From a virus: a stretch of 23,497 nt of DNA. Within the stretch, counting starts at the first letter, position 1. Every line of letters begins with the position of its first letter. The position numbers were made by a program, and so were the translations under genes. Shown one piece after another: positions 4,945 to 23,497 of the stretch. Location of the stretch: positions 1 through 23,497 of the IMG/VR virus record IMGVR_UViG_3300005664_000088; one strand, written 5' to 3'. The notes beneath the pieces were generated by a model, which saw nothing but the letters and a program-made list of their open reading frames with translations, was not told the DNA's origin and ran no database searches.

Positions 4945-5753
4945 TAAAACTCGCTGTCTATCAGTTTACAGGCGTCAAAGCGAATGTTGTAAACAACGGA
5001 GCGTAGGAAATCTTCGTATTCGCTTAACCACATTTCTGCGTGTAGGCAATCCCGCATGTGGGGGAACCAGGGACCTCCGTTTGTGTAGTGCAAAGCTTTA
5101 ATCCTTTCTTTAGCCAGGTGATTCTCAGAGTGACCCGCCACAAAGTGCCAATCCTCAGGCAACCCTTCAACTTCTGTGGGTTTTAACCAAGAAAACTGAT
5201 GGAGGTTTCGCCCAGTTTCAAAACGGACCAAATCAACAAAATCTACACTCTTATTCGAATCAGAAGTCATTTCTAAAACAAACATAGCTGACCAAAGCTT
5301 CTTGTTGTATTGCTCCTGTTTCATACCATCCATTTTAATGGTGTTCTCGGGTTTGTAATCGTGTTTTACGCACCAAAGAGCGGAGGTGGAAGTTCTGTGC
5401 TGTTCAATATACTCGAACATCTTCCCTATGTCGGTAGTCCAAATAAAGTCACAGTCAACAAACATTACCAAGTCGCTCTTTGTAGGATCTTCTAGACGTT
5501 TCCAAAGCTCGCCGATTAAGAACCTGGTGTGGGAGAATTGCGTAGAGAAAGGTCTACCGTCTACCAGATCAACGTACTGACCGTTGGCTTCTATTTTCCA
5601 CTCTCGCGTAAACAAGCCTTGTGAACGAAGATCCCTGTGACAAAGCTTGTGGACTTTAATAGGAACTTTAGCGTATTTCTGAAGGGTAAATTTGGCGACT
5701 TGGTAAGCGGTAGGTTCGCGCTCATCAAATCCTACGTATATGTGATAAGTCAT
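4944..5753 (-). CDS. GT-A glycosyltransferase, GT8-like
   Basis: This 269-aa protein opens with H-I-Y-V-G-F-D-E-R-E at residues 4-13. It carries the metal/nucleotide-sugar binding D-x-D in M-F-V-D-C-D-F at 97-103 and a C-terminal L-H-Y-T-N-G-G-P-W-F at 221-230, where H222 is a likely metal ligand as in GT8 enzymes. Other conserved-looking blocks are F-S-H-T-R-F-L (73-79) and K-H-D-Y-K-P (130-135). This pattern matches a bacterial and phage glycosyltransferase family that I recognise by motif but cannot name. It is the first gene of the four-gene cassette and follows a 68-base gap with a promoter-like motif and hairpin. No clear Shine-Dalgarno precedes its ATG. It probably makes the first transfer of the pathway. 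Confidence 0.8.
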   Translation of the reverse strand: MTYHIYVGFDEREPTAYQVAKFTLQKYAKVPIKVHKLCHRDLRSQGLFTREWKIEANGQYVDLVDGRPFSTQFSHTRFLIGELWKRLEDPTKSDLVMFVDCDFIWTTDIGKMFEYIEQHRTSTSALWCVKHDYKPENTIKMDGMKQEQYNKKLWSAMFVLEMTSDSNKSVDFVDLVRFETGRNLHQFSWLKPTEVEGLPEDWHFVAGHSENHLAKERIKALHYTNGGPWFPHMRDCLHAEMWLSEYEDFLRSVVYNIRFDACKLIDSEF

Positions 5754-6211: not shown

Positions 6212-9200
6212 TTAGTTTCCTGTCGTTTTTTTCAGGGCTTCATAGCGACCTGTGGCTTTTGCAGCCTTGTTTAATTCTCCGTATTGTACCCCTCCAGCCA
6301 AGCGCTGAGCAACAGCCTCGTTGACAGAAGAGAAAAAAGATCCTATATCGTAAGGTACGTTTTTCTTAGTCAGGAACTCCTGCAAATCAGAAACAACATC
6401 CGAATATTTTTGAGCCCATTTCTTGGCTTCCTCGGGGTTACCCTCTTGGTACGCCCTGAGCTCCCTCGTGCGGTAATTCTTTGCTCTGGCTCTGAATTTA
6501 TCCATTGCTGGCTTGTAACGACCATTCTCAAGGGTAGCCCAGTAGCGCTCGTCTCTGGCGTTTGCAACCGTACCGGAACCAATACCCATAGCTCTAAGAG
6601 CTATCTGATCCGGTTCCGCACGGAGATCCTCAGGAGTAACCAGCTGCTTACCTTTACCGGTAACAGCGCCTTCGTCGTAGTACGTATAAGCTTTTAAAAG
6701 GTTGGAAATAGCCATAGGAGTAATCATCGTACCTATCTTAGCCGTGCTTTCGTCTGTGTTGTAGGCTTTCCAGGCTTGTATACCTTGCGTCAGCATAGAA
6801 CCTTGAACACCTGCCAACTCCGTCATATCCCCTTGAACACCCATCGCAGCCAATATCACGTCTTGACCAATTAAAGGTAATCCGATACGTTTGGATACGT
6901 CGATGTTGGTTAAAGATCTAAAGATACCGTTGGTTACAAAGCGGCCAGCGACAGGGCCCCCAGTGGCTTCCGCCAGAGTTTCCTGCATCAATTGATTGAG
7001 ATCAACATCTTCACCTTCTATTCCTGCGTAGGCTTCTTCAGCCAACTCCTTGAACAGGTCAGCTCCTGGAAGACCCATAAGGCCAGCAAAAAGGAACAAA
7101 GAGGCGACAGTCGTAGCAAGAGCTTTCTTGCCTTCAGGACCTCTACCATACATCCTGGCGAGAAACTCAAGAGCTTGCTGAGGGTAGGTCTGAAAAGGAA
7201 ACACAAAGGCACCTAGGCCACCTCTAAGAACATCAGAGCGACCGGTTTTACCAAAGACTGCGTGAGCTTCGTCTAGACCAAAAAGAACTACGTCATCTAT
7301 AAGGGGAAGACCAGAGATCTTTCTTTGTGCTTGAAATCGGTAATCCTGAGCAAGAACATTAGCAGCCTTTTGAAGAGCCTGTGGATTCTCCTGAAACATC
7401 TGGTAGTGAGCGTTGGCCGTAGCAAATCTTGTTGCTTGCTCCATAGCTGAAATAGGTATACCCAAATAGTTGGTTACCTCGTTTAATTTTGTCTTAGCTT
7501 TACCGCCAATAGTTTTGTCTTTGAAAGAAGCTTTCTCTGTGGTGTCGTAGCGATATGTGCCTGTTTGCTCTTCCAAGAAAGCGGCACCTGTACGACCAGC
7601 CTTAAACATACGCTTGTTAAACTCTATTTGCTTGGACGTGTACTTGTGTTTATCTCTCAAATCGTCCAAAAACTTTTGTTCATCAACTCTAAAAACCAAA
7701 GAACCGTTCTCTAGTTGATACGCGTTTTTATTCGTCATAGCTGACATGGCGACTTTAAAATTATTCGAAATATAGCGCATGTTCTTTATCGGATTAGGGT
7801 TGTACTGCGTCATCGAGCCTAACGTTGTTGTCGGAAGGGTCATAATCTGCAGAGCTGCTGAAGACAGGTTACCGCCCATAGTCCAGACAAAGTTAAGCGC
7901 CCTGATCTCCTGGAAGGAGTCAAAGGGGGAGGATGTATAATCTACATACTTTTGTATCTTTTCTTTAATGTTTTTGTGGTTGTCACCCAGCTCGTTTTGA
8001 ATACGGTTGTTGTATTCTTGCATCATAGGTGCGTATTTCTGCTTGGCGAAGTAATGAGCGCTGGACGTGGCGTAGGAGCTTAGAACCCTGTCCCAGTCTT
8101 GCGAGTACCCTGGAATGTTCTCAGAAGGCGCGAACCTACGGGCAAACCCCTTAAACTTCACATCTCTTTCAAGTTGCTCTTTGATTTGTTGATACGCTTT
8201 CTCATCTTTGGCAGAACCCAATAGACCGCTTAAAAGTTCAAACGTAAGCTGGCTTTCACCAATCTTGTCGTAGACATTGGCGTAAGTCATCTCGAAACCA
8301 TCATAAACAACATAATCGTTGTTATCACGGTAGTCCTTAAGGGCTTTCTGTACGGCTTCGTATTGTTGTCTGTTATACCGGCCAAAATGCTTACCCTCTT
8401 CAACCTGTGCATGGTACACGGGTTTGGCATCCGGCTTCACTTTGCCAGACTTGGTTATGTTGTCTTTCAGGTGTACGGTGAAGCCGTACGTTCCAAAACG
8501 CATGTGAGGGACAAAAGCTTTAGATCGCATACGCTCGATGTCTTCCAGGTTTTGCACTTGGTCCTGGATGAAGTCACGGTCCTTTGCCGACATTTGGTCA
8601 TTATCGAGCATTTTAAAAGCTTCTTTCTGAATAGCTTGAGGAGACATTTTTATAGCGCCTGGGATCAGTTTTTCCAAAGCGGCGCGGGACATCATCTCGG
8701 CATCGTTAAGGGGTTCCTTAAGGTACCTGTCAAGATCTTGAATAACACCCAACATACGCTTGTCTTTAATCGCCACGATTTGACCATCTCTTTCAAAAAC
8801 CAGGGAACCATCTTGATCGTAACTAAAGTTTTGACCGGTCATTCTTAAGTGGTCAATCACAGAACCAGCTTTAACGCGTACTTGCGCTTCGCGCTCAGAG
8901 AAGTATCTTTCGCCCATCTCGCGGTATTTGGTCATCAAGTTTGACTGCATATCTTCCTGCGTCCTTTTGATCGCAAAGACAACACCGGCAACAGGGTTAA
9001 CCGAGGCTAGGTGTGCAAAAGAAGAAAGAAATCTTTGGTACAAACCTAAATCTTTATTAGATGCCTTTTCTTCATCAAACCTATCTTTGGCAAATTGTTC
9101 AAACGCATCGTCTTGATCCTTCCAGTGACCTTCTTGGAGTTGATCGGAAAACTTTTGTAACCTGGCTTCCCTGATGGCTTTTACACCGTCCGCAGCAGCT

Positions 9201-11581
9201 TGTTTAGCCGACTGATCCGCAGTGTCGAACAGATCTTCCAAGGACTGAAGACCTTGCAGCTTCATCTTTCTTTGAACATCTTTAAGTGTTTTTAACGCCT
9301 TGTTAAACTCTCTTTTCAGTTTCTTAGGAACGTAAGGTAGTTTTACACCTTTACGTTTTGCTTCGGCGTATTCAGCGAACTTGTTAGCGATAATCTCACG
9401 GCGACCCTCAGGAGTTTTCGCCCAGGCTTTTAGGGTATTCTTAAGGTCTCCTGAGGCTTTCACCACAAGGGGTATTGATTGATCAACAGCTTCTGCGTCA
9501 AAGGAACCTTTATCCGCCAAATAATTCCAAGCCTCTAGGAGAGGTGTTTCCAAGTTGATAAAATTTGAGGGGTCGTTGAAGTTTAAAGCTGCAGACATCA
9601 AATTAGCTTCTTGCACGGTTTCCACAGGGGCTACGGGGTTACCGTTCTGGTCTAAAGTCTCGGGTACGTTAAAAGACACATTATCAGCTTTAATGCGGTT
9701 TAAAGAACGTATTGTTTCTTGAACCTGCATTTGAACCGCTTGCTGACTTTTTCTTTTGTCGGCTTTAACCTTTAACTTCGAGGCGTTGTTGTTTATTTCA
9801 ACTTCAGGAGCCACGGGTGTCTTTGGTTGTACGGGTGTATCCGCTTTAACCAAGGGTACTGGCTCTGTATACGATTTACGCATAATGGCTCCAGCAATAT
9901 CTTCTTTGGTTCTTGTGACGTTGGACTTGGTGTCAGAAATCTCGCTTTCGGGAACACCTTTGGATCTCGCTATTTCAATAAGCTGAGGTTTGGTGTAAGT
10001 CAAAAGGTCTTTAAACTTTTTGTTTTGAACCTTCATGTCTTCAGCTATAAAACCTGGAAGCTCAGAAATAGAGGGCTCATTCGGCGCTTGAGCTGGTGTA
10101 TATTTATTTTGTCTTTGTTTCACTTGCGCTTGTGCAGTGACCGCAAGGGCTTCCCCTGTGGACTCTAAAGGCAAACTTTGGATTTCAACCTTAAAAGGCT
10201 TTACGGGTTTTGCGATAAAAGGGGATTGCGGGGCAATGATCTCAGCCAGGCTCTTTGTCGCTGCGTCTGTTTGAACCTTATTTAGGTCAACATCACCTAT
10301 TGGTGTTTTGTTTTGGATTTTGACTCTTAAGGGAGCCGTAGGGGTTAACCCCGAGGAATTCTTAAGGTTCATCTGCATGTGGGCCTGAAGGTTTTCCTTG
10401 GCTACCCCTGAGAACAACGACTGGTAACCGAGCCGATTGTTCTCCACACGATCCAGCATGACGTTGGCTGCTTTGATCTTCTCTTCAGCTTTAAAGGCAT
10501 CAGGAGAAAAGCCGTTATTACGAAGAACCGCATCAGCAGCCTCCGGTGTGTCGATAATGGATGATTTTGGAGCTTGCTCTTTTAAAACGTCTTCTCGGAT
10601 AACCTCTTCCAAACCCTTTTTGGCTTTCTCGGGAAGACCTTTAGGAATCCCCGAAAGACCGGAATAAAGACCGGATGCTGATCCGAAACCGCCACCTTGT
10701 ACAGCGGCTGCAATGGCAGAATCGAGGTATTCGTTAGCGGCTTCTTCGGAAGTAAAAGGATTGACCTCCAGATTGGCTGCAGAACGCTCCAGGGCTTGCT
10801 GTAGGACCTCTCCAGGTACCCCTACAGCTATCGCTTCAGAGACCTTACCCATGACGTTCTTGGCGACACCAGGGGCCACATTCTCAAAGACCTTCTCTCC
10901 TACGGCTGTTAAGCCAGTCTTCGCCAGGACCCCACCTAGGACCGCTTCTACGGCTGCTTGCGGGACTGCGAGGACTGCGGCTTTTGGGAGGTTTGGTTCT
11001 TGTCCTTCGTCGAGTTGTCTGGAAACATTAAAACCGGTAAAAATAGGCAAAGCAGCCAGAGTAGCACCGACACCAAAGCCTCCAACCTTGGCGACCAGTT
11101 CGGCAACAGGGTGGGGAAGATTAGGAGCAATAGTAGCGCCAGCGACACCACCTGCCATAATAGCCGCCATTTGCGGAGAATTGAGACCAATCTGTTCTTT
11201 GGCGTAATCAAGAAATTTACCCGCTCCTTCAGGGATAGAATCAGCTTTTAAAATATCACGCCAGTCTGTAGCGTTTACCAACAGCTGTCCAGCTTTTTCT
11301 TTTTGCTTTTGAAACTCCTGCGTGGCTAGGGCTTGCTCTTCGCTATCACCAGTCAACTCATTCCAACCGGCGTTTAAAGCAGCGCCAGCACCGGAAAGAC
11401 CAGCAGCGCCAGCCCTGACAGATTCCCAAAAGGTTGGAGAGGCAGCACTAGGCTGCGGTGTGGGGGCTAGTTGCGCGAAGTGCTGCGTGGCAAACGCCTC
11501 AACTTGCTCAGGGGTAGCTCCTTCGGGGCCCTCGAACTTGTAAATCTTTGAATCGGGACCTTGTACTTTGTAGATCGGCAT
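6212..11581 (-). CDS. giant internal virion / DNA-ejection protein with PLxRG-type region
   Basis: This 1789-aa protein starts at ATG 11579-11581, with GGAAG nine bases upstream. Residues 1-35 (I-Y-K-V-Q-G-P-D, then A-T-P-E-Q-V-E-A-F) match the N-terminal motif of phage ejection proteins. Hydrophobic, glycine/alanine-rich segments lie at about 135-185 and 201-223. A SAP/Rho-N-like helix pair is at about 524-570, and charged helical segments run through 700-900. The C-terminal part (about 1230-1680) resembles the PLxRG domain: M-E-Q-A-T-R-F at 1380, F-P-F-Q-T-Y-P at 1461, and a membrane-like helix at 1487-1509. By analogy with T7 gp15/gp16 it would form the internal core and be injected to help DNA cross the envelope. 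No lytic transglycosylase motif was found. It is the last large gene of the ejection module. Confidence 0.85.
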   Translation of the reverse strand: MPIYKVQGPDSKIYKFEGPEGATPEQVEAFATQHFAQLAPTPQPSAASPTFWESVRAGAAGLSGAGAALNAGWNELTGDSEEQALATQEFQKQKEKAGQLLVNATDWRDILKADSIPEGAGKFLDYAKEQIGLNSPQMAAIMAGGVAGATIAPNLPHPVAELVAKVGGFGVGATLAALPIFTGFNVSRQLDEGQEPNLPKAAVLAVPQAAVEAVLGGVLAKTGLTAVGEKVFENVAPGVAKNVMGKVSEAIAVGVPGEVLQQALERSAANLEVNPFTSEEAANEYLDSAIAAAVQGGGFGSASGLYSGLSGIPKGLPEKAKKGLEEVIREDVLKEQAPKSSIIDTPEAADAVLRNNGFSPDAFKAEEKIKAANVMLDRVENNRLGYQSLFSGVAKENLQAHMQMNLKNSSGLTPTAPLRVKIQNKTPIGDVDLNKVQTDAATKSLAEIIAPQSPFIAKPVKPFKVEIQSLPLESTGEALAVTAQAQVKQRQNKYTPAQAPNEPSISELPGFIAEDMKVQNKKFKDLLTYTKPQLIEIARSKGVPESEISDTKSNVTRTKEDIAGAIMRKSYTEPVPLVKADTPVQPKTPVAPEVEINNNASKLKVKADKRKSQQAVQMQVQETIRSLNRIKADNVSFNVPETLDQNGNPVAPVETVQEANLMSAALNFNDPSNFINLETPLLEAWNYLADKGSFDAEAVDQSIPLVVKASGDLKNTLKAWAKTPEGRREIIANKFAEYAEAKRKGVKLPYVPKKLKREFNKALKTLKDVQRKMKLQGLQSLEDLFDTADQSAKQAAADGVKAIREARLQKFSDQLQEGHWKDQDDAFEQFAKDRFDEEKASNKDLGLYQRFLSSFAHLASVNPVAGVVFAIKRTQEDMQSNLMTKYREMGERYFSEREAQVRVKAGSVIDHLRMTGQNFSYDQDGSLVFERDGQIVAIKDKRMLGVIQDLDRYLKEPLNDAEMMSRAALEKLIPGAIKMSPQAIQKEAFKMLDNDQMSAKDRDFIQDQVQNLEDIERMRSKAFVPHMRFGTYGFTVHLKDNITKSGKVKPDAKPVYHAQVEEGKHFGRYNRQQYEAVQKALKDYRDNNDYVVYDGFEMTYANVYDKIGESQLTFELLSGLLGSAKDEKAYQQIKEQLERDVKFKGFARRFAPSENIPGYSQDWDRVLSSYATSSAHYFAKQKYAPMMQEYNNRIQNELGDNHKNIKEKIQKYVDYTSSPFDSFQEIRALNFVWTMGGNLSSAALQIMTLPTTTLGSMTQYNPNPIKNMRYISNNFKVAMSAMTNKNAYQLENGSLVFRVDEQKFLDDLRDKHKYTSKQIEFNKRMFKAGRTGAAFLEEQTGTYRYDTTEKASFKDKTIGGKAKTKLNEVTNYLGIPISAMEQATRFATANAHYQMFQENPQALQKAANVLAQDYRFQAQRKISGLPLIDDVVLFGLDEAHAVFGKTGRSDVLRGGLGAFVFPFQTYPQQALEFLARMYGRGPEGKKALATTVASLFLFAGLMGLPGADLFKELAEEAYAGIEGEDVDLNQLMQETLAEATGGPVAGRFVTNGIFRSLTNIDVSKRIGLPLIGQDVILAAMGVQGDMTELAGVQGSMLTQGIQAWKAYNTDESTAKIGTMITPMAISNLLKAYTYYDEGAVTGKGKQLVTPEDLRAEPDQIALRAMGIGSGTVANARDERYWATLENGRYKPAMDKFRARAKNYRTRELRAYQEGNPEEAKKWAQKYSDVVSDLQEFLTKKNVPYDIGSFFSSVNEAVAQRLAGGVQYGELNKAAKATGRYEALKKTTGN

Positions 11582-13811: not shown

Positions 13812-14255
13812 TTAAATTCCGAAAGTTAACAAGAACCCACTCTTTTTGAAACCTTGTTTCTCGAAAAGTCTTTCTTTGGCCGGTGTTCTGTCGTTACTCA
13901 TGAAAGTCATGATTACCGGTAATTTATTTAATTTTGAAAAATCTTTCATGGCTCCTGCCAGAGCTTTAAAGACTTTCCCACCTTTACGGTGTTCTGGGTC
14001 TACAAAAAAAATGTAGTCAGAAATAACAGGAGTCGAACTCCACCAAGTAGTAACTATCTGAGTTCCTACAAAGCCTTTTATTTTACCTTCTTCTTTGAAG
14101 ATAAACAAAGGACTCTCAGACCATTTATCGTAAAAAAACTCTGTTGTTTTAGCTAGGTCTACTTTAGGCAGGTTTTCAAAACCATGTTCTTTAGGGATCG
14201 TAAGGGCCATCTTAATGACAACCGGCAGATCTTCTTTAGCTGCGGTAAAAATCAA
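13812..14255 (-). CDS. GNAT-family N-acetyltransferase
   Basis: This 147-aa protein follows the GNAT fold in order: a first strand with A-A-K-E-D-L-P at 5-11, a central strand I-K-G-F-V-G at 59-64, and D-Y-I-F-F-V-D-P-E-H-R-K-G-G-K-V-F at 80-96, where R90-K-G-G-K is the acetyl-CoA pyrophosphate loop (R/Q-x-x-G-x-G/A, with G-K in place of the second small residue). The last motif is L-F-E-K-Q-G-F at 130-136. The start appears to be TTG at 14253-14255, because the family's first strand begins right there; the next ATG is too far in. It sits between a small virion protein and the ejection proteins, so its substrate may be a virion protein or a host factor met early in infection. Acceptor unknown. 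Confidence 0.82.
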   Translation of the reverse strand: MIFTAAKEDLPVVIKMALTIPKEHGFENLPKVDLAKTTEFFYDKWSESPLFIFKEEGKIKGFVGTQIVTTWWSSTPVISDYIFFVDPEHRKGGKVFKALAGAMKDFSKLNKLPVIMTFMSNDRTPAKERLFEKQGFKKSGFLLTFGI

Positions 14256-14653: not shown

Positions 14654-15010
14654 TTATTTAACTAATGTGTATTTAAAGATACGATTGGTTGAAACATCGT
14701 TCGCGTGGTAAACAGTGAAAAATTGGGTATTTGGGACACAATAGAGGGTTCCACCGGAGATCTCTAAGGCTGCATCACTTGTGTAGGCGGTCAAATGCAC
14801 AACACTCTTAGCTGTACAGGCCAAATCGTTAACAACAGTGCTTGTAGCACCAGCTGTTAAGGTGACAGACCCTTTATTGGCCGTAGCCCTACCTAGCTCC
14901 CTGTCAGTATCTGTCAAATAAATAGTTAAGCCCCTGACCAACTCACTAAGAAAACCTTTTGTTTTAGGGTCTGCAAAATCTGTGGGTTCCGGTAGTCTAA
15001 TTGTCGTCAT
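14654..15010 (-). CDS. small beta-rich tail/virion protein
   Basis: This is a 118-aa protein. After a polar N-terminal 40 residues (L-P-E-P-T-D-F-A-D-P-K-T) the rest is beta-strand-like, with T-L-T-A-G-A-T-S-T-V-V-N-D at 50-62 and a closing T-V-Y-H-A-N-D-V-S-T-N-R-I-F-K-Y at 99-114. This last piece resembles the I-x-H-A-N-N-x-x-x-D-R-x-F-x-Y ending of small phage proteins encoded beside tail hub genes. It overlaps the tail hub gene by one base. It is probably a virion decoration or tail-tip protein; no enzyme motif is present. Exact role unknown. Confidence 0.62.
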   Translation of the reverse strand: MTTIRLPEPTDFADPKTKGFLSELVRGLTIYLTDTDRELGRATANKGSVTLTAGATSTVVNDLACTAKSVVHLTAYTSDAALEISGGTLYCVPNTQFFTVYHANDVSTNRIFKYTLVK

Positions 15011-16845
15011 TAGCGGCCACCATCAGGCTTGATCGCCAAGCGCGTAACGCCCAGTCTAAAGTCACCACCTTGGGTGCTTGTGGAATATTCTAAAGAAGCC
15101 TGTCTACCACGTGCCCTCAAACTAATCTTTTGAGTAGCACTGGTAACCTCAAAGGGTCCCTTTTCTTGAGTTTCTGTTGAGTTGGGGTATTTTTTAGCCC
15201 TAAAAATAAAGTTGGTTGTTTTGATAAAAGTTCCGTCAGGAATGATTCTGTCTACAAAGACAAAGTCCTGTCCATCACCTATATCAAAATCAGCTGTTCT
15301 TAAATAAGCTTTTAAGTTAGAGCCATCATCGTCTTTACCTACCTCATGGGAATAGAGTTTTCCATCAGCCCCTGTAGCGTATGGCCTATCAAAAATATCA
15401 ATGTCATTCCACGCAGTTCTTACAATCGTACCGTCATACCAAACGCGATCCAGGTAGTTATAAACCACATAACGGCTGTTTTCTATTTCGTTGTTAGCAG
15501 GATAAAACCACCAAACCTCGTCAAACTCCGTGTTGGCACCGGCATGTACTTTTTCTTTTTGGTCAAAATTTAAAGAACCTTCGCTGTTAGGGGAAAAGAT
15601 GTATTTTTGAAGGGAACAGAACAACGTTTGAACAACACCATCGTACTGGTAAAAACCTGTTGGGGACATCCAAAAAACAACACCGTTTACATCCACGGCA
15701 GCGTGTTGAGAAACAATCCCAGGGATTTTACCCAGGTTGTCGAAAGAGAAGACAAAGTCTCCACCGATTCGACGCATAGAGTGTAGGGCTTCGTCTGTAA
15801 AGATAACGATTTCGCGGCGTGTCTTGAGAGCTGTAGAGATAAAAGAGCCGGATTCAAGCCTAAAAGAACCCGCTTGGTTTGTCGCTGCGGCAGTCCAAAC
15901 GTTATAATTTTCACTATCACTCCAACGAATCAAAAGCGGATCAAAGATACCAGACACATTGTGCGTTCCAAAAGCCACAACGTGACGTGCGGGTTGAGCT
16001 ACAAGCATAAAATTTACGACACTGGGGGCTGCTGAAGAAATTACTCTGGCCCGTGTGTCTAAGCCATCAGAGGCGACCCAGGTATAGATTTTACCGCCTT
16101 TAGGGTTAGCCAAAAGGTCTTCACCCCAGTTGTCCAGGGACCATTGGCGAAGCTCGGTGCCTACGCCAGAACCACCGCGAGGACGACCCCAACCGGCGCT
16201 TAAACTGGTACCCACAGAAACCCCTGGGGTTCCCCAAGTACCTGCACCCCAACCGGCAGCAAACCCGTTGTCAGCGTCACCGGAGTCCAAAAGGAACTGA
16301 AAAACAGCAGCACCGCCACCTGCGGATACACAGGTTGTAGCGGAAGTCGAGGATTCGATGATGAAGTAATTCGTACCAGCAGATACAATCTGGTATTCAC
16401 TTAAAAGGTTTATACCGCCTATGCTGGCTGTGGTTGCGAAAAGAACGTAGTCACCCGTGCTGCGGTTGTGACCGTCCACACAAACAGTGATAAAAGATGA
16501 GCCTGAAGTTACATGAAAGGGGTTTGAAACGGAAGCGGAGCTTTCAATCGGTGTAACATCGGTAATCTGTCCACCGTTGTATATCTCCAGTTTTTCGTTC
16601 GTACCTACAGCAATATATTTGTCTGAAGCAAGATCAGCCCAGGTAAGCATATCTCTAGGTACTCCTATGAAAGCTTCAGGTGTTGTTTGCTCTTTGGTCC
16701 AGCCACCTATTTTTTCAGGGCGCTTGTAACGAAACCTTACGTGGTCACAATCTACATACTGACCCTCGGCATCATAATCGGTTGTATTGCGATTAATACC
16801 GGGAGCAATGTTTATCTTCTGAATTTGTGTGTCAGAGCTACTCAT
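15010..16845 (-). CDS. P22 gp10-like tail hub / packaged DNA stabilization protein
   Basis: This 611-aa protein is recognisable from its N-terminal block: I-A-P-G-I-N at 12-17, T-T-D-Y-D-A-E-G-Q-Y-V-D at 21-32, and V-R-F-R-Y-K-R-P-E-K-I-G-G-W at 36-49. This is the standard opening of gp10-type tail proteins of P22-like and many environmental podoviruses. A second characteristic region lies around V-F-W-M-S-P-T-G-F-Y-Q-Y at 390-401. The whole is beta-rich with many W and Y, consistent with a propeller-like hub that plugs the tail and holds packaged DNA. It sits between the collar fibre and the small beta-rich protein, in the expected late tail block. Length is slightly greater than P22 gp10 (about 470 aa), the extra being a Gly/Ser-rich insert at about 100-240. 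Confidence 0.82.
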   Translation of the reverse strand: MSSSDTQIQKINIAPGINRNTTDYDAEGQYVDCDHVRFRYKRPEKIGGWTKEQTTPEAFIGVPRDMLTWADLASDKYIAVGTNEKLEIYNGGQITDVTPIESSASVSNPFHVTSGSSFITVCVDGHNRSTGDYVLFATTASIGGINLLSEYQIVSAGTNYFIIESSTSATTCVSAGGGAAVFQFLLDSGDADNGFAAGWGAGTWGTPGVSVGTSLSAGWGRPRGGSGVGTELRQWSLDNWGEDLLANPKGGKIYTWVASDGLDTRARVISSAAPSVVNFMLVAQPARHVVAFGTHNVSGIFDPLLIRWSDSENYNVWTAAATNQAGSFRLESGSFISTALKTRREIVIFTDEALHSMRRIGGDFVFSFDNLGKIPGIVSQHAAVDVNGVVFWMSPTGFYQYDGVVQTLFCSLQKYIFSPNSEGSLNFDQKEKVHAGANTEFDEVWWFYPANNEIENSRYVVYNYLDRVWYDGTIVRTAWNDIDIFDRPYATGADGKLYSHEVGKDDDGSNLKAYLRTADFDIGDGQDFVFVDRIIPDGTFIKTTNFIFRAKKYPNSTETQEKGPFEVTSATQKISLRARGRQASLEYSTSTQGGDFRLGVTRLAIKPDGGR

Positions 16846-16849
16846 GGAC

Positions 16850-17995
16850 TTAAGTTTTAATCATCCAGGTTACAACTTTATAGGGTGCTAAGGTAACCGT
16901 GTGGGTGTGCGTTCCACTTGCTGAGATAGTGTGTGAGTGACCGCCACCTGAACCTGTTGTCGCTGTTGAACCTGTAATGGAGACAGTGCTTGACGAAGCA
17001 GTTGATGTTTTTCCTAAAGTTGCACCAGGATCACTACCGGCAGAAGATTGTTTTATTGTGTACTGCTCGTTTACGGTAGACACCGTATCGTTGTACGCAG
17101 CTGCGCGGTCTGCCGTTAAAGCAGCTCTACCTGCACCATCTGTGCTAAAAACTGTGTGGTAGTGGGCGGCGGCAGTGCCTGTGAGAGTACCAGCGGCGTG
17201 ACTGTGAGATGGAATGTCAGCTTCTAAAAGTGTGTAAGAACCTGTAGAGCCACCGTGGCTGTGGTCACCGCTGGCACCTGTAACAGTCGCTCCGGCGTAA
17301 GATCCACCAGAAGCTGTCAAAGAACCTGTTATGTTTGTCTTCGGAGTACCCGAGTCGTCTTGATTGGCACCTATAACAAGAACATCCCTTAAATCAGGAA
17401 CGTTGAATGTTGTGGTGCCGTTACCTGACCCATGTAAGGTACCAATAGCTGCAAACAAAGCCGCATACGTCGAACGAGAAACAGCTTGACCATTACAAAA
17501 CAACCAGCCACTAGGAATAGAAGCGATTGTACCAGCCCAAGGTTGGAGCATTCCTGGTTGAAATATTCGTGTGCTATCTGTCGTAGAAGCAACGTTAGCC
17601 ACTTTTATAACGTTAGTACCATCACAAGCTACAATCATTCTGTCGCCAGCGGCGAGGTCAACGCTGCTACCCGAACCCGTTGATATTGTCACGGTATAAG
17701 ACCCACTGTAATCAGAGAGTATTACATACATTTTGGATTTAGAAGGAATGAAAACGCTTAGATCACCACTTACAGTTCCTGTTAACTGCAGAATCATGTT
17801 ACGGGCTTCGTCAGAAGCACCGTTTAAAGTCGTTAAAGTGTGGTCTGCGGAGCCGGATATGTTTTCTGTGTGCATACCTGCTATAGAGTCTTCAATTAAC
17901 TGAAAATTGGTGTCAGCCAGGTCCCCCCAGGTGAACTCGTTTTCCCCGTTGGCCTGGTCAATAAAACGTAGAAGGCTTGTGTATGTGCTAGGCAT
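16850..17995 (-). CDS. tail fibre with phage tail collar domain and HxH metal-binding motifs
   Basis: This is a 381-aa protein. The N-terminus (residues 1-45) is a short helical/strand segment likely to attach to the tail. Residues 148-205 are a phage tail collar domain: P-G-M-L-Q-P-W-A-G at 147-155, P-S-G-W-L-F-C-N-G-Q at 161-170, and F-N-V-P-D-L-R at 197-203. Five H-x-H motifs follow, at 245/247, 264/266, 278/280, 353/355 and 363/365, set in Gly/Ser/Thr-rich strands. H-x-H pairs in the T4 fibre proteins coordinate metal ions along the trimer axis. The C-terminus (A-P-Y-K-V-V-T-W-M-I-K-T) is the usual closing strand of collar fibres. It is probably a homotrimeric receptor-binding fibre. Confidence 0.85.
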   Translation of the reverse strand: MPSTYTSLLRFIDQANGENEFTWGDLADTNFQLIEDSIAGMHTENISGSADHTLTTLNGASDEARNMILQLTGTVSGDLSVFIPSKSKMYVILSDYSGSYTVTISTGSGSSVDLAAGDRMIVACDGTNVIKVANVASTTDSTRIFQPGMLQPWAGTIASIPSGWLFCNGQAVSRSTYAALFAAIGTLHGSGNGTTTFNVPDLRDVLVIGANQDDSGTPKTNITGSLTASGGSYAGATVTGASGDHSHGGSTGSYTLLEADIPSHSHAAGTLTGTAAAHYHTVFSTDGAGRAALTADRAAAYNDTVSTVNEQYTIKQSSAGSDPGATLGKTSTASSSTVSITGSTATTGSGGGHSHTISASGTHTHTVTLAPYKVVTWMIKT

Positions 17996-18007: not shown

Positions 18008-18670
18008 CTATACTTTACCGGACAAGGTGTTTTGTTCGGGGTTTTGAGGTGTTTTCGCGCTATCACGTCTCGAACGTCTAGCTTCGTTATTCAAGCTTTC
18101 TAGAGCTCGTGCGTATTTGGTTTCCCAAACGGCGTCTCTCGTGCTGTAGTCTTTCATAAACTCTGCCATGTTTGACATAGTAGCGTAATACAAGGCGTCA
18201 GGGCAGCGAAGAGAGAAATAATTTGTCGATGTAGAAGCGTTTAAATGTTCGACATCTTTGACGCAGTTAATTGTGAAAACAAAGTTTTGATCTGGGGGTG
18301 GTGCCAGCATCCAGGCTGCGCTGTCCCAGTTGGAGAAATATTTAGGCTGTCCTAAAACAGAAGGGTTGGGCCAATAATCTTTCATAAAACTGGCAGTTTT
18401 CATTACGGGGAAAACAGCGCTTGAAGATACATTGTAAAACATATCTTGCACTACGCGGTACCCTTCAGGTTTGAATAAAAACTGAGATCCTGACGTAGCT
18501 GTGACAGAAACCACTTCTGAAACACCGTCCGTGTCCAGCTCTTTCATTAGTCTTTCTTCTGCTAAATAAATAGCTGTAGGAATGAAAGCTGTGAACTCAG
18601 AACTGTCGTCTTCAGCCAAAGCTGCAATCGCAGAAACCAAGCCATCATAGTTTGTAGGTAGTAAAGACAT
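18008..18670 (-). CDS. SU10-type adaptor / head-tail connector protein
   Basis: This 220-aa protein begins with a helical region (Y-D-G-L-V-S-A-I-A-A-L-A-E-D-D, then F-T-A-F-I-P-T-A-I-Y-L-A-E-E-R-L at 26-41) that matches the N-terminal helices of podovirus adaptor proteins, which dock on the portal ring. A beta part follows, with G-Y-R-V-V-Q-D-M at 70-77 and Y-W-P-N-P-S at 99-104, then W-M-L-A-P-P-P-D and a C-terminal helix with S-R-R-D-S. Neighbouring genes are the repeat fibre and the collar fibre. Known role: joining the portal to the tail tube or nozzle. The C-terminal 25 residues are charged and probably disordered. Confidence 0.68.
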   Translation of the reverse strand: MSLLPTNYDGLVSAIAALAEDDSSEFTAFIPTAIYLAEERLMKELDTDGVSEVVSVTATSGSQFLFKPEGYRVVQDMFYNVSSSAVFPVMKTASFMKDYWPNPSVLGQPKYFSNWDSAAWMLAPPPDQNFVFTINCVKDVEHLNASTSTNYFSLRCPDALYYATMSNMAEFMKDYSTRDAVWETKYARALESLNNEARRSRRDSAKTPQNPEQNTLSGKV

Positions 18671-18678
18671 AAGGGTGT

Positions 18679-20187
18679 TTAAACCACGCGCATAAACATG
18701 TACGGAGCAAAGCCGCCGCCGCCGAAGGACAAGGAGCTTGCTGAAGCAGGTAAAGAAGAAACAGTAGCCGCCATATAAGCAACACCATCTTGAGCCGTTG
18801 CACCTGTAGTGCCGTTTTTCCAGCTGTCAACACCAGCGTACACAAGTGTAGGGTTACCTGTACCACCCAAAGCGCGGCAACCTAGCCAGTAAGTACCTGG
18901 GAAAACTGTAACGGATACTGTGGCTTCTTTTATTCCAATTGTCGTGAAAGGAACTGAGCTGGACTCAAAGATTTTTGCTCCAGGAGCGCCAGCAGAGTCA
19001 GCGTAAAGACCAAAAACACCGTTACAGCCAGCAACAGCACCGTCCACGACAACACCTACACGCGTCCAAACCTTTTTCTCTGGGCAAACCCAAGGGGCCA
19101 TCCAAAGAACGCTCGAAGTCATCGGTGTGGCTGAAAACAAGGCATTAATACCTTCAATACCGTAATACCTGTTATTCGCAACTGTTAGGCGGTTTCTAGG
19201 AACTACTTGTTGTAAACCAACTTCGGCTATACCGTCCGTCCTGAAAATCCAGTCAGAGTTGGAGTTGAACCCAAAATATTTGTTCTGGTATTGACCGTGA
19301 TTTGTTAAAGGAGCCATATAGAACCCTACGCCGTAGAGTGCTGTGCCTCCTGCAGAGTTTTCTGCACAAGTATCAAAAGCTGTGATAAAAGCAGAAGCTA
19401 CGTTGGCTGTACCTCTGTTCACACCAACACGACCTTCAACACCGATAACCAGCGCATCAGTGCCTAGGGCATCCTTATAACCATAACCAATAACACCACC
19501 GTAATGTCCTACACCAGATATGTCGGCAGAAACCCCTACGTGGTTCGTTTTACCAAAAACAGCAAAGCGAACTGCTTGAGTGCCAGCAGCAGGAGACCAG
19601 TTGTACTCTACGAAGTTGTACCCAACATCCGAAAAGGTGCCCATGGCAACCAAAGACGAAGAACAAGAAACTGAAATCTTTTGACCTGTGTATTGGATTC
19701 CCAAAGTGGCTGACGTAAAAGGTATGTCTGTAAATTTAGCGAAAGCTGAAGAAGAGGTTTTTGTCAGGTAGAGTGCGTCAGCCTCTGCTGGTTTCATAAA
19801 GGCAGAGGAAGATGTCTTGGTTAAGTATAAAGCATCAGCTTCAGTCTGTTTGATAAACGCCGAAGAAGAGACCTTGGTTAAATATAAAGCGTCCGCTTCA
19901 GTTTGCTTCATGAAGGCCGAGGAAGATGTTTTGGTTAAAAACAAGGAGGCCGCTGAGGCTGAAGTTATAAATCCAGAACCGTCAACAATACCTTGGGCCA
20001 AAGCTGAGGCTTCGGCGGAAGTAACGAAAGAATCAATGTCGGCGGAAGTAATAAAACCTAAGCCCGTAGCAACTTGAGATAGAGTAGCCCTGCGGACACC
20101 CACGTTTTGAGAAATCAAAATGGAGTCTGTTGTTGAAACTTCAGTGGCTTGGGTAAACGTGTTACCGTCGTTCTTTATAAAACTCAT
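18679..20187 (-). CDS. tail fibre/spike with 19-residue tandem repeats and carbohydrate-binding-like C-terminus
   Basis: This is a 502-aa protein. After a short N-terminal segment with T-S-A-D motifs, residues 84-151 hold three full copies and a partial fourth of a 19-residue repeat built on L-T-K-T-S-S-S-A-F-M-K-Q-T-E-A-D-A-L-Y, typical of a trimeric fibre shaft. The middle (160-330) is Gly-rich and beta-like (G-H-Y-G-G-V-I-G-Y-G). The C-terminal 170 residues, with a P-E-K-K-V-W-T-R-V-G block at 375-384 and C-R-A-L-G-G-T-G-N-P at about 447-456, look like the beta-sandwich binding domains of phage fibres and spikes. It is one of three candidate receptor-binding proteins in the window. No catalytic motif was seen. 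Confidence 0.72.
   Translation of the reverse strand: MSFIKNDGNTFTQATEVSTTDSILISQNVGVRRATLSQVATGLGFITSADIDSFVTSAEASALAQGIVDGSGFITSASAASLFLTKTSSSAFMKQTEADALYLTKVSSSAFIKQTEADALYLTKTSSSAFMKPAEADALYLTKTSSSAFAKFTDIPFTSATLGIQYTGQKISVSCSSSLVAMGTFSDVGYNFVEYNWSPAAGTQAVRFAVFGKTNHVGVSADISGVGHYGGVIGYGYKDALGTDALVIGVEGRVGVNRGTANVASAFITAFDTCAENSAGGTALYGVGFYMAPLTNHGQYQNKYFGFNSNSDWIFRTDGIAEVGLQQVVPRNRLTVANNRYYGIEGINALFSATPMTSSVLWMAPWVCPEKKVWTRVGVVVDGAVAGCNGVFGLYADSAGAPGAKIFESSSVPFTTIGIKEATVSVTVFPGTYWLGCRALGGTGNPTLVYAGVDSWKNGTTGATAQDGVAYMAATVSSLPASASSLSFGGGGFAPYMFMRVV
19735..19938 (-). repeat. 57-bp tandem coding repeats in the tail fibre
   Basis: Three 57-base units (19882-19938, 19825-19881, 19768-19824) and a partial fourth (19735-19767) encode the 19-residue shaft repeat. 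The units differ mainly at synonymous or conservative positions (K-T/K-V, F-M/F-I, Q-T/P-A). They keep the reading frame, so gain or loss of one unit would only lengthen or shorten the shaft. Confidence 0.8.
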
Positions 20188-20193
20188 TAGGGT

Positions 20194-20541
20194 CTACTCC
20201 GGGTCTTCTTCAGCTAAAGCTGGTTGTGGATCTTCAGTGATAATTAGGAAAGTGCCATCTTCAAAAAAGATGTAATTGGGTTTTGGATCAGTCACGTCTC
20301 GTCTAACATTTTTAAGACCGATAGCCTCGCGGGTATCAGCAGGGAAGTTTTGGGGGTGATCTACACGGTTCCACATGCCATCAGATTCAGATTTATGAAC
20401 AAACAAGTTGGTACCCGGTTCAAAGATCATCTCTCTGTAGGGAAACCTGAAACCAGAGCGGTCAGAAATAGCCCAGGCATGTTTACCTGTGGCCCATTTA
20501 TGACTAGAACGTCTGTTGTTTTGTTTAGGTCTTTGCGACAC
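20194..20541 (-). CDS. small conserved structural protein (C/S-D-R-S-G-F-R-x-P-Y-R-E family)
   Basis: This is a 115-aa protein with G-K-H-A-W-A-I-S-D-R-S-G-F-R-F-P-Y-R-E-M at 19-38 and N-R-V-D-H-P-Q-N-F-P-A at 58-68. Both blocks recall a small family of phage structural proteins encoded next to adaptor and tail genes, in which the first block is often W-A-I-C-D-R-S-G. Here the usual Cys is Ser. The start is GTG at 20539-20541, overlapping the upstream stop as TAGTG, which suggests coupled translation. The ends are polar and charged (Q-R-P-K-Q-N-N-R-R and E-E-D-P-E). It is probably a head or connector minor protein; exact role unknown. Confidence 0.65.
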   Translation of the reverse strand: MSQRPKQNNRRSSHKWATGKHAWAISDRSGFRFPYREMIFEPGTNLFVHKSESDGMWNRVDHPQNFPADTREAIGLKNVRRDVTDPKPNYIFFEDGTFLIITEDPQPALAEEDPE

Positions 20542-21242
20542 TAGGAACCTAAAATAGTTTTACTGGCAGGGTAAACACTGTAATCAATTCTTTCTCTGTC
20601 TTCTTCCAAAGCTAGCTGCAAAGCCTCTAGATACTCACTCTTGTAGTAAAGAACAGTTTGAAGATCTGCTTGTCTAATTTCAGACATTTTCCAACGCAAC
20701 CCGTTAACAATCGCCTGTAGGTACCTGGTAGAAAAGTCCACCAGCTGGTAGCTTTTGGTTATATCGGCTACTTTCACACAACTCCAAGTAATAAACTTAT
20801 AAGTTTGTGCGTTTGGTACCGGCCAAAAGTTGACGGTTAATTCATCTCTTTGACGATCCACCATAAATTGTGTGGGGCGACCCACAGTATCTTTAATCGG
20901 GATCTCTAACCAGTCAGCTAAAGATATTCTTTGTATGGGTATGTCTAAAACTTGTGTAGAAGAAGACGTGCGAATAATAGCATCAAAGACATTCAAAGTG
21001 GAAGACCCCAAGGAATATCCTAAAGAACTAGCCGAAGTCAAAGGAACGACAACTTGCTCCATTGAAGCAAGAGGAACCATCCCTCTATTTTGCATGTCTA
21101 TGAAAAGAAGGTTTAAAGCTCTACGCGCCAATCTGGATTCGAACTGCGTGACGTGTTCACCACCTAAGCCCTCCAGGGCTTGCTCGATGATTTCATCTAC
21201 AGGTAAATCAAAAGTTTTTGTCGTTCCTACCGTTTCAACCAT
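20541..21242 (-). CDS. tail accessory / adaptor-like structural protein
   Basis: This is a 233-aa protein. Residues 13-55 read L-P-V-D-E-I-I-E-Q-A-L-E, then R-L-A-R-R-A-L-N-L-L-F-I-D-M-Q-N-R-G, a helical pattern typical of podovirus tail accessory or adaptor proteins. Beta blocks follow, with I-P-I-Q-R-I-S at 100-106, G-R-P-T-Q-F-M-V-D-R-Q at 120-130 and F-W-P-V-P at 138-142, which I recognise as a conserved family in virion-gene blocks of environmental podoviruses. It may correspond to the P22 gp4-type factor that extends the portal, but I cannot show that. It overlaps the next gene by one base and lies three bases after the esterase-like gene. Confidence 0.66.
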   Translation of the reverse strand: MVETVGTTKTFDLPVDEIIEQALEGLGGEHVTQFESRLARRALNLLFIDMQNRGMVPLASMEQVVVPLTSASSLGYSLGSSTLNVFDAIIRTSSSTQVLDIPIQRISLADWLEIPIKDTVGRPTQFMVDRQRDELTVNFWPVPNAQTYKFITWSCVKVADITKSYQLVDFSTRYLQAIVNGLRWKMSEIRQADLQTVLYYKSEYLEALQLALEEDRERIDYSVYPASKTILGS

Positions 21243-21245
21243 GTG

Positions 21246-23321
21246 CTATCTCTTAAATATACCTGCTTTAGTTATTTTAGTTGTCAAGCTAGAGGAGGTC
21301 GTGCTGTCAGCTATTGATACCAAACGCCACTCAAGAGACATTCCTGAGCCGGATGAAATAGCCAAATCAGGAGTAAATATTGTATACACACCGGGTGTGG
21401 AGTAGGTTTCAGCCAACAGCAGGTTAGATCCTGAGTTACCGCTACCATCAAAACCCCTGGTGGTTACTTTTGTGGGTACACCTGTGCCGGTTAAGCGTAG
21501 CTCCAATCTGAATTCAAAAACGTTAGAAGGTGTAGAAGGTATTTCAACTTCAGCCAAACCGTACACAGTATCACCCACTGAGAAACCAGAAGACGTTGTT
21601 TGAGACAATCGCATTTCATCAGTTGCCCCACCAGAAGTTATGTTTTGTACCAGCTGTTGGACATCACCTGTCGCTTTCGATCCTGTGCGGTTCTGCGCTG
21701 TATTGACGCCTGTAAGCGTATAACCAGTCGCAACAGAACCTGTAGCGTTAGACCCTGCTGTACCCCCTGTACCCGACAAAGTTGGATTCGACAAAAGGTT
21801 ACCTGTAGTGTAATTCACAGTGTTGTTACCGTAGTACGAAACCAAAGTGTCTTTAATCTTTTTACCAACAGCGTAGGCACCATAAGGACCAAAGTGAAGA
21901 TCGTCGTAAGCCATGTTTGCTACTATTCCTCCTGCTCCATCAGTCGTAGCGGCGTAGGCGTCAACGCAAACACAGCGGCCCAATCTGGTTCCGTGTTGAG
22001 CCATAATCCAGGCGTTTACAGTGTCCATAGTCGCTTTCGCTGTCACAATCTGAGGGGCTGTGAGGGTTGACCAGTTAGACCTGGCGGTGATCGTGCTCCA
22101 AATTAAACGCTTACCTAAAACAAGACAGTTGTAATCCGCGATTTGGTTCAAAGAGCTTATAATAGCCGAAGGTGAGGCTGTAAGGGCCACAATGTCATTT
22201 GTACCACCCATAAAGAAAAGAGTGTCGTAAGTAATCGCTGGAAGATCTGTAGTCATACGGGAAACCATCTGGACAGTTGTGTTTCCTGCTATACCCAGGT
22301 TGTTTGCCGGTAAAGGAAATTTCATACGGTTTCCAGCTAAGGCGTTATACCAAGTGTAAGCTCCAACATTCTCCAGGTTTTCGTCTGTTGTGCTTCCGCC
22401 GATATCCATGTAGGCCGTGATGGAATCACCTAAAGCTGCTGCGGTGATGTTTCCGGTTAGCAAAGGAACGGCCACAGGTCCATTTGCAGCAGTCGGTGGC
22501 GTGGATTTGTAAGGGTGCCAAGAGGGTAGGTTGGAAGTTAAGCCGTGTTTCCAAGCCAAGTAACCTTCCATCTCGTAAGCGTAAGTGTCGTCGGTGCAAA
22601 TGATAATTTCGTATATATCACCTGTCATAAAAGCACCTGCGGAGGTTCTCAGTAAACAGCCTACCGCAAATCTGTTTAGAGTCAAACTGCCGGATCGTGT
22701 AATACCTACAATGGTTGTTCCTGCCGTTCCATCCAAATAGCCAGCCATAGCCAAGCCGCTGTCCACAAGACGCACCAGATTTTTTGTACCGTCATAGGCT
22801 GTTATCGTATTTCCGGTAACGTTCGAAGACAGAACGCCAGCTGCGTCATTTCTTAAAAAAAGAATGTTGTCTGAAGAAGCTGCTGTAGCCTTTACACCAA
22901 ATTGGTAAACAGGGCTACCCGAAGACGAGCTACCCTCAGCTATGATCCCTGTGCCGTTCTGCGTGGGAATGTTACAAACCATGTAAATGGCGACTTTACC
23001 GTTTGCGTACATCCAGGGGGATGAATTGAACAGGTAGTCACCACCGTCAAAAGACATTTTTGTTCCATCCCAAGTGGGTCTCAAGGTGGAAGCCCCTGCC
23101 TGTGCCAAGTGTCTTGCGTTGGTCGATTTGTCGTTCCAAGCAGAGCAAACTCCTGCGGGGGCTGTGATGGTAGCTGCGTCAGTTGCATCGTACCAAGCGC
23201 CTAGTTTTGAGCCAGCGTTTGTTGGAGAAAAGGGTACGGCAGATTCACCACCAACACCTGATAAGTTGGAGGAAACATTAGACAAAAGAGTGCTGAGAAG
23301 GTTGGACGAAATAGAGCGCAA
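21246..23321 (-). CDS. tail spike-like LamG + SGNH hydrolase (esterase-like)
   Basis: This 691-aa protein reads from TTG at 23319-23321. The open frame continues to 23384, but that part lies inside the upstream gene. After a short polar leader, residues 35-270 form a LamG/concanavalin-like domain ending in Y-L-A-W-K-H-G-L-T-S-N-L-P-S-W-H-P-Y. Residues 290-490 are an SGNH (GDSL) hydrolase: G-D-S-I with S300, G-I-A-G at 343-346, G-G-T-N-D with N375, and D-D-L-H at 473-476 with H476. All four SGNH blocks are intact. The C-terminal 185 residues are Gly/Thr-rich and beta-like, resembling a carbohydrate-binding jelly roll. It probably removes acyl groups from the host surface polysaccharide. AGGG lies about 11 bases upstream of the TTG. 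Confidence 0.85.
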   Translation of the reverse strand: MRSISSNLLSTLLSNVSSNLSGVGGESAVPFSPTNAGSKLGAWYDATDAATITAPAGVCSAWNDKSTNARHLAQAGASTLRPTWDGTKMSFDGGDYLFNSSPWMYANGKVAIYMVCNIPTQNGTGIIAEGSSSSGSPVYQFGVKATAASSDNILFLRNDAAGVLSSNVTGNTITAYDGTKNLVRLVDSGLAMAGYLDGTAGTTIVGITRSGSLTLNRFAVGCLLRTSAGAFMTGDIYEIIICTDDTYAYEMEGYLAWKHGLTSNLPSWHPYKSTPPTAANGPVAVPLLTGNITAAALGDSITAYMDIGGSTTDENLENVGAYTWYNALAGNRMKFPLPANNLGIAGNTTVQMVSRMTTDLPAITYDTLFFMGGTNDIVALTASPSAIISSLNQIADYNCLVLGKRLIWSTITARSNWSTLTAPQIVTAKATMDTVNAWIMAQHGTRLGRCVCVDAYAATTDGAGGIVANMAYDDLHFGPYGAYAVGKKIKDTLVSYYGNNTVNYTTGNLLSNPTLSGTGGTAGSNATGSVATGYTLTGVNTAQNRTGSKATGDVQQLVQNITSGGATDEMRLSQTTSSGFSVGDTVYGLAEVEIPSTPSNVFEFRLELRLTGTGVPTKVTTRGFDGSGNSGSNLLLAETYSTPGVYTIFTPDLAISSGSGMSLEWRLVSIADSTTSSSLTTKITKAGIFKR

Positions 23322-23334
23322 AACAGGGAGAGCC

Positions 23335-23497
23335 CTAAAGGATACCCACAACAGTTGCTGTGCCAGAAGCACCGACTTTTTCAATGCGGATGGCTTCTAC
23401 AGGACCGTTGACCACGGTTGCAAAAGAGTTTGTTGCTGTCGTGTATGAAGAGGAACCTGCTGAAACCGTGTCCTCTAAATGCGAGAAAAGAAGGGTT
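23335..23497 (-). CDS. C-terminus of an unknown structural-type protein (partial)
   Basis: A minus-strand frame is open from the window edge to TAG at 23335-23337 and encodes 53 residues of a C-terminus rich in T, S, V and A, with a closing beta-like segment (V-E-A-I-R-I-E-K-V-G-A-S-G-T-A-T-V-V-G-I-L). That style suits small phage capsid or decoration proteins. Its stop lies 13 bases before the chosen TTG of the esterase-like gene, which supports the shorter reading of that gene. The protein's N-terminus is outside the window, so no family can be given. Confidence 0.55.
   Translation of the reverse strand, partial: TLLFSHLEDTVSAGSSSYTTATNSFATVVNGPVEAIRIEKVGASGTATVVGIL

Follow-up and report, generated by a model that had tools for sequence, protein, structure and literature searches.

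What is a lectin-like domain doing in one chain with an SGNH esterase and a second jelly roll, and where on a phage would such a chain act? The question is raised by a gene near the end of the window, by which we mean all 23,497 bases of IMG/VR record IMGVR_UViG_3300005664_000088, a probable phage fragment. Directly seen here are a three-part gene with intact blocks, predicted folds, linkage to an adaptor gene, absence of the gene in two relatives, and a recurrent pairing of its lectin with SGNH-superfamily esterases.

A three-part gene in a virion operon

The coordinates proposed in the first-pass annotation (21246-23321) are correct, and the gene sits on the minus strand (Table 1). An open frame of 712 codons runs through 21246-23384 on that strand, of which 691 aa are counted from a TTG at 23321; the plus-strand translation of 21246-23321 is riddled with stops. 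Some doubt attaches to the TTG start. Inspection by eye showed no clear ribosome site before it, but the nearest relative starts at a similar place.

The stop of the upstream gene (23337-23335) precedes the TTG by 13 bases, and adaptor 1 starts (21242) 3 bases past the stop of the esterase gene. This close spacing on both sides indicates that the esterase gene is packed into an operon of virion genes. The upstream gene is cut by the window end, and its visible end is related to small proteins at two loci with similar gene order, L002 and L008 (jackhmmer against small upstream ORFs, with E-values that refer to a very small set). Downstream follow adaptor 1, fibre-like, adaptor 2, collar and stabilisation genes, as expected from the earlier placement of the gene within a block of adaptor and tail genes. 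No foreign base composition was seen, the gene having 47.4% GC and the window 45.2%. As a separate observation, one operon here holds two SU10 adaptor family genes (18008-18670 and 20541-21242); some relatives retain both, and the pair stands in swapped order in L003-L007.

Table 1. Features of the lectin-esterase gene and of its operon in the window.
Feature	Position	Strand	Basis or remark
Lectin-SGNH-jelly-roll gene	21246..23321	minus	691 aa, 71.9 kDa, pI 5.4, TTG start; longest frame reaches 23384
N-terminal ConA-like (LamG-type) jelly roll, residues ~28-276	22494..23240	minus	predicted fold; motif EGYLAWKHGLTSNLPSWHPYK at its end
SGNH/GDSL esterase domain, residues ~290-498	21828..22454	minus	PF13472 6.8e-13; model Z 16-20 to acetyl esterases
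Ser300 codon, block I G-D-S	22422..22424	minus	sequence blocks
Gly346 codon, block II GIAG	22284..22286	minus	sequence blocks
Asn375 codon, block III GGTND	22197..22199	minus	invariant, 17 aligned rows
Asp473-Asp-Leu-His476 codons, block V D-x-x-H	21894..21905	minus	His invariant, 17 aligned rows
C-terminal jelly roll, CBM-like, residues ~510-691	21249..21794	minus	predicted strands 519-690; Foldseek
Upstream gene, last 53 aa and stop, cut by window end	23335..23496	minus	relative of small pre-adaptor proteins in L002, L008
SU10-type adaptor protein 1	20541..21242	minus	PF24175 E 8.9e-8
115-aa conserved tail-block gene	20194..20541	minus	phrog_28581; 52% in L002
502-aa fibre-like protein with repeats	18679..20187	minus	phrog_25864; repeats read from sequence
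SU10 adaptor family protein 2	18008..18670	minus	PF24175 E 7.7e-20
Tail collar fibre	16850..17995	minus	PF07484 E 4.2e-22
Stabilisation-type virion protein	15010..16845	minus	phrog_3287 E 8.1e-71

An intact SGNH esterase domain

In the 691-aa numbering the SGNH residues are G298 D299 S300, G343 I A G346, G373 T N375 D376 and D473 D L H476. All blocks had been called intact, and they are; the residue numbers given for them (S300, G-I-A-G, N375, D473/H476) are exact. Lipase_GDSL_2 (PF13472) matches over profile positions 1-175 of 178, and the 691-aa protein scores 49.9 bits where the curated cut-off is 32.9 bits. A pattern of the SGNH blocks, written after the protein had been seen, was found in one of the 31 stop-to-stop frames of at least 100 aa in the window and in none of 20,000 shuffled versions of the protein sequence.

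A full-length structure model built from 15 sequences was good in the SGNH domain, usable in the C-terminal jelly roll and unfolded in its N-terminal half. The SGNH part (residues 290-497) reached Z values of up to 20.2 (rmsd 2.4, 186 aligned), with PVA esterase first (20.2), followed by PbeAcXE (19.1), CE3 (17.9), Axe2 (17.2) and sialic acid/sialate O-acetylesterase (16.6); an SGNH-type esterase protein, PDB entry 9cod, is also among the structure matches. The predicted structure has the three-layer SGNH fold. Structure prediction had been put forward as a check on the domain, and the SGNH geometry is retained as far as the fold and the aligned blocks show. The blocks, the score and the modelled fold together assign the protein to the SGNH/GDSL hydrolase family. 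The type of ester is not fixed by these matches, since the best Z belongs to PVA esterase and the fold is common to lipases and thioesterases.

The domain also belongs with a phage family. phrog_6102, 'lipase', matches at E 4.9e-39 over residues 301-643 of the 712-aa frame, that is, the SGNH domain and much of the C-terminal domain; its PHROGs category is 'moron, auxiliary metabolic gene and host takeover'. In BFVD the SGNH and jelly-roll half matches phage proteins, including the tail spike of Pectobacterium phage PP99 (rank 14, E 5.7e-10).

Two jelly rolls flank the esterase

The C-terminal domain had been described as a jelly roll, in agreement with the predicted strands and with a Foldseek match to TmCBM61 (2xom, E 4.4e-6). 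The Klebsiella K2-2 tailspike (8iqe) was found at E 4.7e-5. Judging by the kind and length of the targets, both matches probably concern the C-terminal part of the model.

The first domain had been labelled lectin-like and 'LamG'. Its lectin-like character holds at the level of predicted fold, which is a ConA-like jelly roll. The LamG label is unsupported by Pfam sequence models, since residues 1-281 matched no Pfam family at E up to 1. Because only two sequences were aligned over the N-terminal half, the full-length model was poor there and the domain was folded apart from 32 sequences (pLDDT 79.6, pTM 0.81). Its best phage structure match is chain p of the tailspike entry 9vyh from Pseudanabaena phage Pan3, with Z 18.5 for 220 aligned residues that are 15% identical. 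Fold matches to GH54, sialidase and clostridial toxin binding domains were taken as shared fold only. In a related observation, a relative of the lectin domain in Pseudanabaena phage Pam2 (ON014754.1, 57604-58233) is recorded as 'botulinum neurotoxin type A', which looks like over-annotation through the common jelly roll fold.

About 27 residues, with a predicted helix at 6-20, precede the first jelly roll. No N-terminal virion-binding domain was recognised by Pfam or PHROGs; an adaptor gene is adjacent.

The lectin domain is widespread, with at least 516 confirmed sequence matches in viral contigs, and is mostly chain-terminal in the 80 of these that were looked at; in relatives it is usually either a protein by itself or the last domain of a chain. 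Directly upstream of stand-alone lectin genes there are often small proteins of ~80-145 aa (L136, L141, L142, L146, L150 and others, and likewise L166, L178, L188, L195 and L198), several of which share a similar tail, ..ATTAT/TGTSAT..V..Y or ASGTGSVHIIPGEG. A role as partner or anchor is possible for these small proteins.

The whole fusion recurs in one other lineage

A single-sequence search of viral contigs returned no relative of the protein, and a profile of the SGNH half returned 21 loci. Two of these, L099 and L100, carry the full lectin-SGNH-jelly-roll layout and represent one protein on two contigs, 57% identical to the window protein (60%, 60% and 52% by domain). The lectin model found no N-terminal lectin domain at the other 19, and among 211 loci the window protein and L099/L100 are the only cases in which a single ORF matches both the SGNH and the lectin model. 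The LamG-first order had been thought uncommon, and with one protein on two of 21 SGNH-family loci it is.

Within the flanks covered, L099 and L100 encode nothing else that matched a protein of the window, and the fibre of L100 resembles that of Roseobacter phage CRP-810. It thus appears that phages otherwise unrelated to one another have exchanged the fusion in one piece. A genome scan gave 12 loci, every one a partial SGNH match at 25-49% identity, with no bacterial copy of the fusion among them; plasmids held no match to the protein. In the literature searched under these domain names, we found no phage fusion of LamG with SGNH, or of a lectin domain with an esterase domain.

More distant relatives come from among the phrog_6102 'lipase' proteins and their kin (phiK7A1 gp059, Lyrsu01_00013, JSF7 APD18153, KBC54_009 and the QdP_Psa3 spike), all five of which were found by the SGNH and C-terminal model. 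They have the SGNH and C-terminal domains in common with the window protein, and four of them align with it over ~400 residues at 21-26% identity. They differ at the other end: the lectin model found an N-terminal lectin domain in none of the five, and the QdP_Psa3 spike has a long N-terminal part of its own, unlike that of the window protein. Three of them have a receptor-binding setting. The Lyrsu01 relative adjoins a 'particle-associated lyase', the JSF7 relative adjoins a T7-tail-N/beta-helix protein, and in QdP_Psa3 the shared part follows the long N-terminal part in one chain, encoded among baseplate genes.

The slot is filled in the window and empty in two relatives

In L002, the nearest relative, the gene order is kept, with identities of 54% in adaptor 1, 52% in the 115-aa gene, 30% over 114 residues of the fibre, 49% in adaptor 2, 39% in the collar and 51% in the stabilisation protein. 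There the gap between the small 123-aa gene and adaptor 1 is only 12 bases. L008 has the same order, with 74 bases between small gene and adaptor. The esterase gene is thus absent from the equivalent junction of both, between the same flanking genes.

PF13472 was found in none of the 50 related virus records searched (of 86 loci), which suggests that the group can do without the gene. The SGNH model likewise found nothing in the 32 loci that have capsid and adaptor genes, loci with repeated adaptor starts being left out of this count. Gain is, on these two counts, simpler than loss, and we infer that the esterase gene was acquired at this slot as a cassette. Slot size varies from 0.6 to 7.1 kb across the 32 loci, two of which (L186 and L195) carry a stand-alone lectin gene in the capsid-adaptor interval; lectin genes also lie in the slot of L142 and L153, two loci whose visible part lacks a capsid gene. 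The contrast between the window and the two relatives without the gene makes the exchange of receptor modules open to test.

Does the lectin keep a dedicated partner? A search narrowed to the lectin's closest clade yielded nine loci, and the L100 lineage makes up two of them, its lectin being 60% identical to that of the window. A second lineage consists of L134 (the same as L300), L302 and L303, which are 94-100% alike and whose lectin is 41-42% identical to the window's. These proteins are laid out as Mtd_N-collagen-SASA-lectin (SASA 3.9e-31 in L134), with SASA region and lectin present in all three alike. As in the window, a lectin domain is fused to an SGNH-superfamily acetylesterase; the esterase is instead of the SASA family, the domain order is reversed and the N-terminus is of a recognisable tail type. 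L301 and L139 start at a contig edge, so that the partner region is missing. In L304 and L305 the lectin match spans 46 residues only, and SGNH is absent by the models used.

Both other lineages with a complete and well-aligned lectin therefore pair it with an SGNH-superfamily esterase, in two families and opposite orders, although two lineages are a small number. In the wider lectin family the pairing is scarce: among 50 records PF13472 was found in one, below cut-off, and PF03629 in two, one of them L134's. We regard it as a tentative idea, more doubtful than not, that this jelly-roll clade has a dedicated glycan acetylesterase partner and that the window holds a portable one-chain cassette, inserting whole into the capsid-adaptor slot. 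In Pan3, on this idea, a lectin of the same fold serves as a separate subunit of a spike that may be esterase-like. If the window does hold such a cassette, a podophage may change its glycan receptor without touching the main fibre genes.

A proposed virion lectin-esterase and its alternatives

Since SGNH deacetylases are proven in other phages, deacylation of a glycan is the leading reading. We propose, with a probability of about 0.6, that the protein is a virion-associated lectin-esterase that deacylates a host surface glycan during adsorption; its location, trimerisation, acetyl specificity, substrate and role in adsorption are all inferred. In this model the N-terminal ConA-like and C-terminal CBM-like jelly rolls would hold the host surface polysaccharide, while the SGNH domain would catalyse through Ser300-His476-Asp473, with Gly346 and Asn375 forming the oxyanion hole. 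Ester-linked acyl groups, most likely acetyl, would be removed during adsorption and the polysaccharide chain left uncut, as with G7C gp63.1 and PP99 gp55. By analogy, then, the jelly rolls may bind the host glycan as its acyl groups are shaved off. The model predicts an O-acylated glycan on the host surface. Against it stand the lack of a recognised virion-binding domain, a capsid-end slot away from the fibres, the 'moron' PHROG and the dispensability of the gene.

A connection to the phage's own glycan cassette had also been suggested, and for this we found only co-occurrence ~15 kb away, with no O-acetyltransferase among the proteins scanned. The cassette (2378-5753) lies between tail/ejection and lysis genes and has four genes, encoding a GT-like protein (phrog_28018), an unmatched 304-aa protein, a SAM methyltransferase and an MptE/DUF115 protein (PF01973) distantly similar to the flagellin modification protein PseD. 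The sole acetyltransferase match among the scanned window proteins is a GNAT (13812-14255) inside the structural block. The GNAT family acts mostly on amines. L008, CRP-901 and CRP-810 likewise carry a GNAT near structural genes. Elsewhere in the window, a 1789-aa protein with no Pfam match (6212-11581) stands beside a DNA-ejection-like 739-aa protein (phrog_4287) and is perhaps a large ejected virion protein.

With no recognised anchoring domain and a slot between the small post-capsid gene and the adaptor, the protein could be a spike or a head or neck fibre. The latter is the most serious competitor, although we give it only about one chance in five: an esterase-bearing fibre or decoration at the head or neck, rather than a tail spike, would provide a loose hold on cells or surface polymers. 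The gene does occupy a variable slot between a capsid-side small protein and the adaptor, as do the stand-alone lectin genes of L186 and L195, and phrog_10356, which the lectin domain of L100 matches, belongs to the head and packaging category. There is also a precedent in phage A-1(L), whose neck fibres are described as bearing a distal carbohydrate-binding module (PMC10966104). However, the Pan3 lectin subunit belongs to a tailspike entry, the L134 lectin follows a tail-type N-terminus, and virion position is poorly predicted by gene order.

It is rather unlikely that the protein is a moron, an enzyme altering host glycans or lipids inside the infected cell, for instance to block superinfection. 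The PHROG category of phrog_6102 and the absence of PF13472 from all 50 relatives searched would suit such a role, but no signal peptide was seen by eye in the 691-aa protein, the gene lies only 3-13 bases from virion genes, and both the lectin domain and several relatives are known from proteins of the virion or tail. Least probable of all is a virion enzyme aimed at O-acetylated peptidoglycan or a lipid or polyester instead of a capsule or O-antigen glycan: PVA esterase, lipases and thioesterases do share the SGNH fold, but two carbohydrate-binding-like jelly rolls flank the domain here, and in the accounts available the phage SGNH proteins that have been characterised act as deacetylases of O-polysaccharide or capsule.

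Comparison with known phage systems

As a kind, the SGNH deacetylase is already known; it is the lectin-first domain order that is rare. In the published accounts available, gp63.1 of Escherichia phage G7C is a receptor-binding deacetylase that removes O-acetyl groups and leaves the chain uncut (PMC10743462), and gp55 of Pectobacterium phage PP99 was shown experimentally to do the same to an O-polysaccharide (PMC6989608). Possum gp66 (PMC9569702) and Aristophanes gp41 (PMC8471582) are described as SGNH receptor-binding deacetylases of O-antigen or capsule, and two Klebsiella prophage SGNH proteins as active esterases, in a report that treats deacetylating receptor-binding proteins as a counterpart of depolymerases that is likely to be widespread (PMC13123978). 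The cases so described come from Klebsiella, Escherichia, Pectobacterium and Acinetobacter phages. The window protein shares with gp63.1 and gp55 an SGNH-type esterase, theirs within the receptor-binding apparatus, and its model matches the PP99 spike; a lectin-first domain is not among the features given for either in these accounts. At the level of sequence, neither G7C nor PP99 was among the eight phage records found with the SGNH half at E up to 1.

For the lectin half, the closest comparison is Pan3. Its gp15 (270 aa) has the jelly roll fold of our N-terminal domain, is present as three chains in 9vyh, and is encoded beside the tail spike gp14, likewise three chains. A lectin of this fold is therefore a tailspike subunit in another podophage; gp15 differs in being a separate subunit, and in sequence it is far removed. 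Pan3 gp14 has what we take, by eye, to be SGNH-like motifs. Model searches and pairwise comparison did not bear this out, giving no SASA match, a sub-threshold Lipase_GDSL E of 0.057 and no pairwise support.

The Acinetobacter phages fLi-Aba02/03 bring both functions together, an SGNH protein (gp21) and a ConA-like protein (gp22) being described as one receptor-binding set (PMC11058221). There gp21 and gp22 are two separately numbered genes, likened to ours by description only, whereas the window encodes its lectin and esterase as one compact chain. This gene and its relatives would extend the deacetylating receptor-binding kind to further phages.
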